Origin: Xestospongia bergquistia
Taxonomy: Eukaryota > Porifera > Demospongiae > Haplosclerida > Petrosiidae
Direction of reading: 5' to 3'
DNA: 64,000 nt
NCBI GenBank assembly: GCA_963965975.1
Contig: OZ014424.1
Span: forward strand, 5,722,380-5,786,379
The notes beneath the pieces were generated by a model, which saw nothing but the letters and a program-made list of their open reading frames with translations, ran no database searches and was not told the DNA's origin. Shown one piece after another: positions 34,848 to 38,946 of this stretch (its first letter is position 1; every line of letters begins with the position of its first letter). A program made the translations under genes and the position numbers.

Positions 34848-36760
34848 TTAAATTATAGGGTCTCATTTTATGATACCCTAAATGTGTTACTTAGTTATAG
34901 TTATGTATAATTAATTGTAATTGTTTTAATAAATGGTTTTATATAATGTATTGAATTACAGCAAACAAAGATAGAATTCTCAGCACAACTTTTTAAGTTT
35001 TAAATTACTAAACTAAATCATCATAAAGTGTTCTAACATATTATGTTCAATAACTTGTTACAGTTATCTTGTAAATATTTATTTAAAAGTGGCCTTCTTC
35101 TGACATTCTTCATAATCTTGTTCAACTAAACGCAGTATCTCTTCTGGTTGATCAAAGAATACAAGATGTTGCTGGTCATCTTTAGAAATGCCTAAAGCAC
35201 TTATCAGATTGGTAAGAGCTGTTTTAAATGGCTCACGATAAATATAAAGCTTCTTTGGTGGATAGAATTGGTTATTACCAAGACAACAAGTAGTCCACGT
35301 TATCATCAACTCTGTTATTGTTCCAATAGTCCCAGGAAATACAATAAAATATTGTGAGCTGGTAACTAGATGGCTAATTTGATCAAGATATGTCTGACAC
35401 AAATGTCGATGAGTCAAATATGAATTACCTTGTGGATTTCGTTTAGTAAATATACGTGGTATTAATACACCCAAAGCAATTCCTCCATTTTCATTGGCTC
35501 CATGAGATGCAGCTGTCATAATTCCATTGTAACCTCCATTAACAATGCGATAACCAGATGATGAAAACAAGGCAGCTGTCCTACGTGCTCTTTCATACTC
35601 AGGAGAGCCAGGCTGTGGTGAGCGAGAGCCAAATATGGTAATTGATTTAGGTGGAGCTGCTAAACCTATTTGTATGTTAAATTGTCGCAGTTTTCGAAGG
35701 AAGTTCTCTTTCTCTACTAATGGCAGGAAAGTAGCATTAAAAGCATTACAGCATATCTTGTAAATGTCTTGTTCAGTCATCCCAGTTTCAGCAGCTGTGG
35801 CTAAGAAGTTATCAGTGATATAGCCACCAAAATATGCTGGATCATCAGAATTAATAGTCACCATTAACCCTTTATCTAAGAGCGTTTTAGTCTGGTTCTT
35901 TCCTTCAAAATACCGACTATTAACTTGTAATTTTTTATTTGAGAGAGGGCAGACAGTAAGAGGTATTTGCTCTTTAGCTAATCGTTTTACTAGCTCATCA
36001 TCAAACAGACATTGCACTCCATGATCAATTCTTTTAGCATGGAGCAAATCTAATGCTTCTTTGATGTATTCTGGACCTCCTTCTTCACCAGCATGTGCAA
36101 CTATCTTTAAACCTAGCCTTCCAGCTTCAGCAAACACTTTGGTAAATTTATGAGGCTGGTTATCAATCTCTCCTGAGTCCAGTCCAACTGCTATTATCTT
36201 GTCTAAGTGAGGAAGAGCATCATTGAGTGTGGCCATGTGCTTATCTTGTGGTAAGTGACGTAAAAAGCACATGATAAGGCTGCCTTTAATATTGAAGTCA
36301 TGGTAACCATTGACAAGAGCACGATGAAGTCCGTTGATAACAATATCAAATGGAATTCCTCTTTCCGTGTGCGTTTGAGGATCAAAGAAGATCTCTGCAA
36401 CATGGACACCATCTTGTGCAGCACGTTGAAGATAGGCAGACATGAGGTCGTAAAAATCTTCTTCTTTTAAGAGGACACTACAAGCTTGATAGTACAAATC
36501 AAGGAAGTCTTGTAGATCCTATAATATGAAGTAATAACTATTTTATGTTTAAACTTTATTCAGTACCTTGAAGTTCTTTCTTCTTTCTTTATGAGATTCA
36601 ATTGTTCCCTCAAGTTGGATTCCATTTCTAACAGCAAGTTGAAACATTAATTCTGGTTCTAAAGTCCCTTCTATGTGAATATGAAGCTCAGCTTTTGGAA
36701 TATCTTCAATATATCTTTTCAGATGTTCAGACAATGTAGCCATTTTTGACTGTATGAAAA
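34655..36760. repeat. Tandem duplication, unit A
   Basis: This stretch, from the intron before the last ANKRD27 exon through the first adenine deaminase-LOG gene, recurs almost unchanged at 36862-38950. It is a direct duplication of about 2.1 kb. High similarity extends through the 3' flank, the full gene and the intron, so the event is recent compared with other duplications in the window. Confidence 0.9.
35079..36743 (-). CDS. Adenine deaminase fused to LOG-like domain, copy A
   Basis: Two exons (36567-36743, 35079-36518) encode 538 residues. Residues 1-345 are an adenosine/adenine deaminase fold: zinc motif [14 protein letters not shown] (H21, H23), [10 protein letters not shown] typical of adenine deaminases, HAGEEGG (H201, E204), RIDHGVQ (H225) and [10 protein letters not shown] (D284, D285). 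All catalytic residues are present, and the signature phrases favour adenine deaminase (AAH1/COG1816 type) over animal adenosine deaminase. Residues about 350-538 are a Rossmann domain of the LOG/SLOG superfamily: [26 protein letters not shown] and [10 protein letters not shown] (normally PGGxGTxxE). LOG enzymes split nucleoside monophosphates into base and ribose-5-phosphate. A combined route from AMP-like substrates to hypoxanthine is inference. The start agrees with copy B. Confidence 0.88.
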
Positions 36761-36861
36761 AAAGGTTACCTTTTTTCATAAGGCCACACTACTAAAAACA
36801 CACTACAATTATTATAATAATTCCTTTTATAAATATTGGACTTCGTGTTATGACAATCACA

Positions 36862-37053
36862 TGTCCATTTACTAAATCATATGTCTATTTATTTTCTTCT
36901 CTATTTTATGATGATGAGGTTCATGATGTTATTCAGAGAGCTATGAAATGTGAAATAACTACTGGAAAATATGCCACACCCATTCATCAATTGCAGACAG
37001 TCCTGGAATTTCAGATGATGAATTTGAACACATTAAACCAATTAATTAGTTAA
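36862..37053 (+). pseudogene. Orphan copy of the last ANKRD27 exon
   Basis: The sequence matches 34655-34850: the pre-exon intron, then DDEVHDVIQRAMKCEITTGKYATPIH in frame. One base is missing shortly after (in the Gln-Phe-Ala region), which shifts the frame, and the splice acceptor TTTTAG before the exon is altered to TTTTATG. It has no upstream exons and is a by-product of the duplication. Confidence 0.88.
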
Positions 37054-37281
37054 ATTATAGGGTCTCATTTTATGATACCCTAAATGTGTTACTTAGTTAT
37101 AGTTATGTATAATTAATTGTAATTGTTTTAATAAATGGTTTTTATATAATGTATTGAATTACAGCAAACAAAGATAGAATTCTCAGCACAACTTTTTAAG
37201 TTTTAAATTACTAAACTAAATCATCATAAAGTGTTCTAACATATTATGTTCAATAACTTGTTACAGTTATCTTGTAAATAT

Positions 37282-38946
37282 TTATTTAAAAGTGGCCTTC
37301 TTCTGACGTTCTTCATAATCTTGTTCAACTAAACGCAGTATCTCTTCTGGTTGATCAAAGAATACAAGATGTTGCTGGTCATCTTTAGAAATGCCTAAAG
37401 CACTTATCAGATTGGTAAGAGCTGTTTTAAATGGCTCACGATAAATATAAAGCTTCTTTGGTGGATAGAATTGGTTATTACCAAGACAACAAGTAGTCCA
37501 CGTGATCATCAACTCTGTTATTGTTCCAATAGTCCCAGGAAATACAATAAAATATTGTGAACTGGTAACTAGATGGCTAATACGATCAAAAAATGTCTGA
37601 CTCAAATGTCGATGAGTCAAATATGAATTACCTTGTGGATTTCGTTTAGTAAATGTACGTGGTACTAATACACCCAAAGCAATTCCTCCATTTTCATTGG
37701 CTCCATGAGATGCAGCTGTCATAATTCCACTGTAACCTCCATTAACAATGCGATAACCAGATGATGAAAACAAGGCAGCTGTCCTACGTGCTATTTCATA
37801 CTCAGGAGTGTCAGACTGTGGTGAGCGAGAGCCAAATATGGTAATTGATTTAGGTGGAGCTGCTAAACCTATTTGTATGTTAAATTGTCGCAGTTTTCGA
37901 AAGAAGTTCTCTTTCTCTACTAATGGCAGAAAAGTAGCATTAAAAGCATTACAGCATATCTTGTAAATGTCTTGTTCAGTCATCCCAGTTTCAGCAGCTG
38001 TGGCTAAGAAGTTATCAGTGATATAGCCACCAAAATATGCTGGATCATCAGAATTAATAGTCACCATTAACCCTTTATCTAAGAGCGTTTTAGTCTGGTT
38101 CTTTCCTTCAAAATATCGACTATTAACTTGTAATTTTTTATTTGAGAGAGGGCAGACAGTAAGAGGTATTTGCTCTTTAGCTAATCGTTTTACTAGCTCA
38201 TCATCAAACAGACATTGCACTCCATGATCAATTCTTTTAGCATGGAGCAAATCTAATGCTTCTTTGATGTATTCTGGACCTCCTTCTTCACCAGCATGTG
38301 CAACTATCTTTAAACCTAGCCTTCCAGCTTCAGCAAACACTTTGGTAAATTTATGAGGCTGGTTACCAATCTCTCCTGAGTCCAGTCCAACTGCTATTAT
38401 CTTGTCTAAGTGAGGAAGAGCATCATTGAGTGTGGCCATGTGCTTATCTTGTGGTAAGTGACGTAAAAAGCACATGATAAGGCTGCCTTTAATATTGAAG
38501 TCATAGTAACCATTGACAAGAGCACGATGAAGTCCATTGATAACAATATCAAATGGAATTCCTCTTTCCGTGTGCGTTTGAGGATCAAAGAAGATCTCTG
38601 CAACATGGACACCATCTTGTGCAGCACGTTGAAGATAGGCAGACATGAGGTCGTAAAAATCTTCTTCTTTCAAGAGGACACTACAAGCTTGATAGTACAA
38701 ATCAAGGAAGTCTTGTAGATCCTATAATATGAAGTAATAACTATTTTATGTTTAAACTTTATTCAGTACCTTGAAGTTCTTTCTTCTTTCTTTATGAGAT
38801 TCAATTGTTCCCTCAAGTTGGATTCCATTTCTAACAGCAAGTTGAAACATTAATTCTGGTTCTAAAGTCCCTTCTATGTGAATATGAAGCTCAGCTTTTG
38901 GAATATCTTCAATATATCTCTTCAGATGTTCAGACAATGCAGCCAT
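37282..38946 (-). CDS. Adenine deaminase fused to LOG-like domain, copy B
   Basis: Same two-exon structure (38770-38946, 37282-38721) and length (538 residues) as copy A, 97 percent identical. I count 16 amino-acid differences. Only four fall in the deaminase part (position 3, YHD to YYD, EID to EIG, NFL to NFF), while twelve fall in the smaller LOG part, for example [10 protein letters not shown] to [15 protein letters not shown] to GGYSG, LIPRI to LVPRT and LCQTYLDQ to LSQTFFDR. All deaminase metal and catalytic residues are kept, as are the LOG phrases FGSRSP and PGTIGTITE, so both copies look functional. The pattern suggests relaxed or changed selection on the LOG substrate site. Its 5' flank is unrelated to that of copy A, so regulation may differ. 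Confidence 0.88.

Follow-up and report, generated by a model that had tools for sequence, protein, structure and literature searches.

Two-domain proteins that couple a deaminase to a nucleotide-binding domain are represented by Cad1 (CARF-adenosine deaminase) of type III CRISPR systems, in which CARF domains gate the deaminase. The nearest solved structures to the deaminase described below, 3ou8 and 3rys, have chains that stop after the barrel. On the hydrolase side, mutagenesis of CgLOGII, a type-II LOG of known structure (5wq3), found R155, T175 and E178 to be required, and AMP hydrolysis was abolished by K156A and nearly so by D177A (PMC5379747, available part). Here we describe two adjacent genes of the sponge Xestospongia bergquistia that each join an adenine-deaminase-type domain to a LOG-like domain. 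They lie in a stretch of 64,000 nucleotides (assembly GCA_963965975.1, contig OZ014424.1, positions 5,722,380 to 5,786,379), called the window below; all coordinates are positions in it. Both domains are of known kinds; we know of no precedent for their joining or for the split between the copies. We regard the single-exon fusion as close to certain. Our best explanation, to which we give an even chance from sequence, is an animal purine enzyme of two domains, with an upstream copy that would be bifunctional and a downstream copy that would be a deaminase carrying a LOG fold able at most to bind a nucleotide.

Two fused genes in tandem

Both genes are on the minus strand, head to tail, with the upstream copy at 38946..37282 and the downstream copy at 36743..35079. 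Each has a predicted product of 538 amino acids, made up of a 59-codon exon 1 and an exon 2 split by a predicted 48-bp GT..AG intron, which we placed by its splice signals and by aligning the deaminase. In the upstream copy, exon 1 (38770..38946; residues 1–59, with the HIH zinc motif) is followed by the intron (38722..38769) and by exon 2 (37282..38721; residues 60–538 plus the stop), which covers both domains. The same parts of the downstream copy are at 36567..36743, 36519..36566 and 35079..36518, and the two introns are identical in sequence. The preliminary description of this locus had reported two copies in tandem, and both are indeed open, with uninterrupted exon-2 open reading frames (ORFs) at 37282..38700 and 35079..36497, of 472 amino acids apiece. 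Its further statement that one continuous frame runs through both domains is inexact because the predicted intron contains three in-frame stops, but the domains are joined within a single exon. Its numbering, which runs to residue 538, implies that exon 1 had been counted in.

The LOG-like domain (residues 350–538) occupies 37285..37851 in the upstream copy, as placed by Pfam and a fold model, and 35082..35648 in the downstream copy, as placed by Pfam. A linker of about residues 341–349 precedes it (37852..37878 in the upstream copy). A rival reading is an error in the gene model, with two separate messages and a fusion that is no more than an open frame. We consider this very improbable. The domain junction lies inside exon 2, whose 479 sense codons are open in both copies; the domain matches are separated by just 10 to 14 residues; and the LOG half has stayed open in both copies in spite of 12 changed residues.

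An adenine-deaminase-type barrel

By sequence comparison, residues 1–340 are a cog1816 (PA0148-like) adenine-deaminase-type TIM-barrel domain. Pfam A_deaminase matches the two exon-2 ORFs above its gathering cut-off (E 3.4e-63 and 3.8e-63). The NCBIfam model NF006850, named adenosine deaminase, has a cut-off of 419 bits, which the spliced upstream protein passes with 462.3 bits; this spliced score covers the upstream copy only, and exon 2 alone gives 374 and 376 bits. Motifs containing H21/H23, H201, E204, H225 and D284/D285 (HxH, H, E, H, DD) were found in both copies, and we take these residues to have the zinc-binding and catalytic roles. The complete deaminase claimed in the preliminary description is thus borne out by motifs and scores alike. 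In the full-length model, this half has a predicted local distance difference test score (pLDDT) mostly above 90, dropping near the intron that was read through.

The nearest solved structures are 3ou8 (E 4.3e-78), which is PA0148 and presumably an adenine-deaminating enzyme, and 3rys (E 4.8e-66), deposited under the title adenine deaminase AAur1117. Both resemble the whole deaminase half, with about 50% identity in the fold alignment and a target-normalised template modelling (TM) score of 0.95 for PA0148, about 41% and 0.93 for AAur1117, and the zinc and catalytic motifs in common. Unlike these chains, the sponge protein continues past the barrel into the LOG-like domain within the same exon. 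We consider it probable that the deaminase half acts on a free 6-aminopurine base.

A related alternative is that the protein handles N6-modified substrates, with a LOG half that frees N6-methyladenine or a cytokinin and a deaminase half akin to cytokinin deaminases. LOGs do use N6-substituted AMP (PMC5379747, available part), and Patl2390, itself a cog1816 member, is a cytokinin deaminase that accepts N6-methyladenine (PMC13296781, available part). However, 3ou8 and 3rys are the solved structures nearest to the deaminase half, and Patl2390 does not accept adenine according to the same portion of that source, so we think this alternative quite unlikely.

We also rejected an assignment of the deaminase to a bacterial lineage. 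In a tree built on 49 rows, a thinned set of 121 with no eukaryotes among them, the window deaminase sits on a long branch (1.43) and in no starred group. A deaminase from a contig labelled Micrarchaeota grouped in our comparisons with four rows that came from a draw centred on a Bacteroidetes genome; the contig is perhaps mis-binned.

A LOG-type fold with a different pocket

The preliminary description had proposed profile searches of the two halves, and these place A_deaminase, Lysine_decarbox and LDcluster4 above their gathering cut-offs in both exon-2 ORFs. The E-values for the LOG half (ORF 35079..36497 first, then 37282..38700) are 1e-12 and 1.1e-14 for LDcluster4 and 8.3e-9 and 4e-11 for Lysine_decarbox (PF03641), whose cut-off both copies reach. 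Neither reaches the 96-bit cut-off of TIGR00730, with 70.3–70.8 bits for the upstream copy and 61.6 for the downstream copy. For LDcluster4 (PF18306, cut-off 26.3 bits) the scores are 54.8 and 48.4 bits, respectively. A scan of 120 genomes with LDcluster4 gave only three matches at 124–167 bits, and loci with ordinary LOG motifs in those genomes reach 72. We leave membership in LDcluster4 undecided because ordinary LOGs score similarly.

The LOG half had low confidence in the full-length model, and in a second alignment MAFFT placed LOG-only rows on the deaminase half, so it was folded alone. The upstream LOG half then gave a pLDDT of 86.2 and a predicted TM score (pTM) of 0.85. All 50 PDB rows listed in a fold search with it are LOG, YgdH/PpnN, TT1465/TT1887 or LOG-like proteins, some of which we take to be LOG-like. 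The best match among them was 9us2 (E 9.8e-15, TM 0.79), and query-normalised TM scores for the type-II LOG and YgdH structures 5wq3, 1wek, 5zi9 and 9us2 are 0.74–0.79 over their chains. From this model we confidently read residues 350–538 as a LOG-type Rossmann fold, which is one of the two points on which the preliminary description had staked its interpretation.

Active-site residues were compared with those of CgLOGII. The upstream copy keeps the three required residues, as R439 (codon 37582..37584; R155 of CgLOGII), T459 (T175) and E462 (codon 37513..37515; E178). In the downstream copy the arginine is replaced by glutamine (Arg439Gln, codon 35379..35381), and F436/F437 of the upstream copy, equivalent to F152/F153, are Y and L. 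Identity to the type-II LOG and YgdH structures is 23–27%, and the fused sponge protein has PGT for PGG. Neither copy has the PGGxGTxxE motif together with the adenine contacts K156 and D177, which are replaced in both by I440 and T461. Taken with the TIGR00730 shortfall, the loss of these contacts, whose CgLOGII mutants are cited above, sets the LOG half apart from canonical LOGs, and on this point the preliminary description needs amending. I440 and T461 have counterparts in TT1887 and in a LOG-like family of viral contigs, which points to a different pocket and not necessarily to a dead enzyme. TT1887 (1weh) shares the GGY loop, has R-I in the active-site helix and lacks an Asp ahead of the catalytic Glu; it differs in being unfused.

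The viral-contig family comprises 11 loci, of which 7 were read. Its motif is FF-T/S-RL plus PGG-GT-LE, without the Asp, so that both adenine contacts known from type-II LOGs (Lys and Asp) are missing and the positions read R-L and L-E. In sequence the window LOG half is a distant LOG, with 32% identity to the best plasmid LOG. Two plasmids carry LOG genes with type-II motifs: pVT2, a mobilizable mycobacterial plasmid, and a conjugative Pseudarthrobacter plasmid, where the gene lies among heavy-metal genes.

Since R439, T459 and E462 are kept and their equivalents are needed in CgLOGII, the upstream LOG half may be a hydrolase, a judgement that we find evenly balanced. Arg439Gln probably leaves the downstream LOG half without hydrolase activity. 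The bifunctional enzyme from AMP to hypoxanthine in the preliminary description is therefore arguable for the upstream copy only.

Another reading is that the LOG-like half is a sensor, which would bind a nucleotide or an ADP-ribose-like signal and gate the deaminase, as the CARF domains do in Cad1 and the SLOG region does in TRPM2. Consistent with this, both copies lack two AMP-contact residues, and one of them also lacks the catalytic Arg. Fusions of A_deaminase with a sensor are known: Cad1 structures match the deaminase half, as does the PADLOC CARF_ADA model (E 1.6e-28). Two defence-system models give weak matches to the LOG half (PsyrA E 9.8e-7, ShosA E 0.0025). Cad1 differs in that its sensor is a CARF domain, N-terminal judging by the match to the chain end, and in that its deaminase shares just 19–22% identity when aligned by fold. 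In TRPM2 the SLOG region is where ADP-ribose binds, and TRPM channels bear a SLOG-class domain (PMC13143021, available part), so the earlier remark that animals usually lack both domains needs a qualifier. Against a sensor are the R439, T459 and E462 retained upstream and the fold matches of the LOG half, which include proven LOG and YgdH/PpnN-kind hydrolases. We rate the sensor as possible but rather unlikely.

Divergence between the copies

The copies differ at 23 codons, 16 of them with an amino-acid change. These changes are concentrated in the LOG half, while the deaminase half has stayed conserved: the ratio of nonsynonymous to synonymous differences per site (pN/pS) between the copies is 0.21 for residues 1–340 and 1.48 for residues 341–538. 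Residues 360–440, a stretch picked post hoc, carry 11.5 nonsynonymous and 0.5 synonymous changes, where the silent rate predicts 3.5 (P 9e-4). A scan of all 80-codon spans found 11 changed residues in one of them (P 0.00015 under uniform placement), and label shuffling over the 23 differing codons gave P 0.012 for a run of 12. The counts per half, 12:2 against 4:5, were not significantly different (Fisher P 0.066).

The LOG half may be under relaxed constraint, positive selection, or both, and conversion from an unseen third copy is another possibility. We took the downstream copy as the more derived because of its lower LOG scores (LDcluster4 48.4 vs. 54.8; TIGR00730 61.6 vs. 70.8). An unlikely but specific extension is that the LOG pocket of this second copy was remade, possibly by positive selection, from hydrolase to a nucleotide sensor governing the deaminase, so that catalytic and regulatory paralogues would stand side by side.

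Search for fused relatives

We searched samples of plasmids, phages, viral contigs, prokaryote genome contigs and whole prokaryote genomes (five partly overlapping draws), using the exon-2 protein or the LOG half as the query. None of the 137 matching plasmid records covered 80% of the exon-2 protein, nor did any of 14 phage records, and a megablast of 34600–39100 against plasmids gave no match. Among viral contigs the single exon-2 protein found no relative, and an alignment query found 7 deaminase matches, all ending by residue 273; further searches with the LOG half gave LOG matches, none fused, or in one search no relative. With the deaminase query, no fusion was found in the best 80 of 577 confirmed genome-contig loci, and the LOG half found nothing there in an insensitive search by exact 8-residue patterns only.

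Whole genomes matched at rates of 146/190 at E 0.001 (at least 19 of them reaching 1e-60), 81/398 at 1e-70 with at most four candidates scored per genome, and 22/191, 30/296 and 14/199 at 1e-60. Among the matches listed, none spans both halves in one gene, with some long frames (e.g., G379, G542 and G339) unread. Four matches that extended beyond exon-2 residue 320 were rejected as fusions. L034, reaching exon-2 residue 407, is two adjacent genes; in L037, reaching 344, the deaminase ORF ends at 354 amino acids; G076, reaching 358, crosses two stops and G031, reaching 332, crosses four. A bacterial fused homologue as the source was likewise rejected, none being present in the plasmid, phage, viral and prokaryote samples searched. 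No report of an adenine deaminase–LOG fusion was found in the open-access literature searched, with most subscription papers outside its scope. The fusion is thus unmatched in these samples, which include no eukaryote collection, and animal-only status is not shown.

A parallel arrangement of separate genes occurs in two related alphaproteobacterial genomes (L034/L093 and L102), where ORFs for a putative TonB-receptor-like protein, a deaminase and a canonical LOG are consecutive on one strand (L034:353-4527). The gap from deaminase to LOG is 120 bp in L034 and 93 bp in L102. By analogy this adjacency supports a functional link between the two activities. We do not take the bacterial pair as the ancestor of the fusion because its LOG is of another type. 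Both genomes have a second A_deaminase match about 3 kb off on the same strand.

Genomic setting

The neighbouring genes are an animal set, in agreement with the preliminary description. A Pfam scan of nine other ORFs in the window gave matches for seven, one of them of a coiled-coil-like kind only, and none for two. The families nearby include an SLC52 riboflavin transporter and C2H2 zinc fingers. On one flank of the fusion pair are SH2-SOCS box, filamin-NHL with B-box and secretin-type receptor genes, and on the other a dual-specificity phosphatase, directly upstream of the fusion genes, and a ZC3H12A-type RNase.

This setting bears on whether the pair could be a contaminating bacterial contig or two haplotypes set in tandem by the assembly. 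Bacteria commonly have deaminases of this type. However, each gene has a predicted intron, the pair is flanked on both sides by genes of animal type, and the copies differ at the 23 codons given above; we think either origin highly improbable, though the copies may still be haplotypes.

The duplicated unit is about 2.09 kb long, and its first copy (36856..38949) is 97.9% identical to the second (34653..36746). It includes a piece of the 3' neighbour, the end of an ankyrin-repeat-like gene on the opposite strand (32980–34850, plus strand; repeats judged by eye, no family scan). This end was co-duplicated with the fusion gene and left an orphan piece between the two copies.

A proposed two-domain purine enzyme

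In the reading we prefer, the LOG half of the upstream copy would hydrolyse AMP, or a closely related purine nucleoside 5'-monophosphate, at its N-glycosidic bond to give the base and ribose-5-phosphate, and the deaminase half would convert the freed 6-aminopurine to hypoxanthine and ammonia. In the downstream copy R439Q would abolish hydrolysis, leaving a deaminase whose LOG-fold domain might at most bind or sense a nucleotide.

Several findings weigh against this. The adenine contacts of CgLOGII are replaced in both copies, and TT1887 (RI, PGGVGTLAE), the closest match to the I440/T461 pattern, is uncharacterised, its entry naming it a conserved hypothetical protein. In the full-length model the LOG half, on whose placement facing active sites or channelling would depend, was left unresolved. 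The bacterial adjacency is rare, at 3 of 122 deaminase loci, the three coming from two genomes and some of the 122 being the same gene twice, and the LOG of that pair is 24% identical to the window LOG half.

If the two-domain purine enzyme is real, it would provide a one-polypeptide route from purine nucleotide to hypoxanthine in an animal that needs neither adenosine deaminase nor AMP deaminase. The two copies would amount to a natural experiment, with the deaminase half nearly the same and the LOG active site different. The role of a LOG-like domain beside a deaminase would have a wider bearing because an animal SLOG-class region, that of TRPM, is known as a ligand-binding sensor (PMC13143021, available part).

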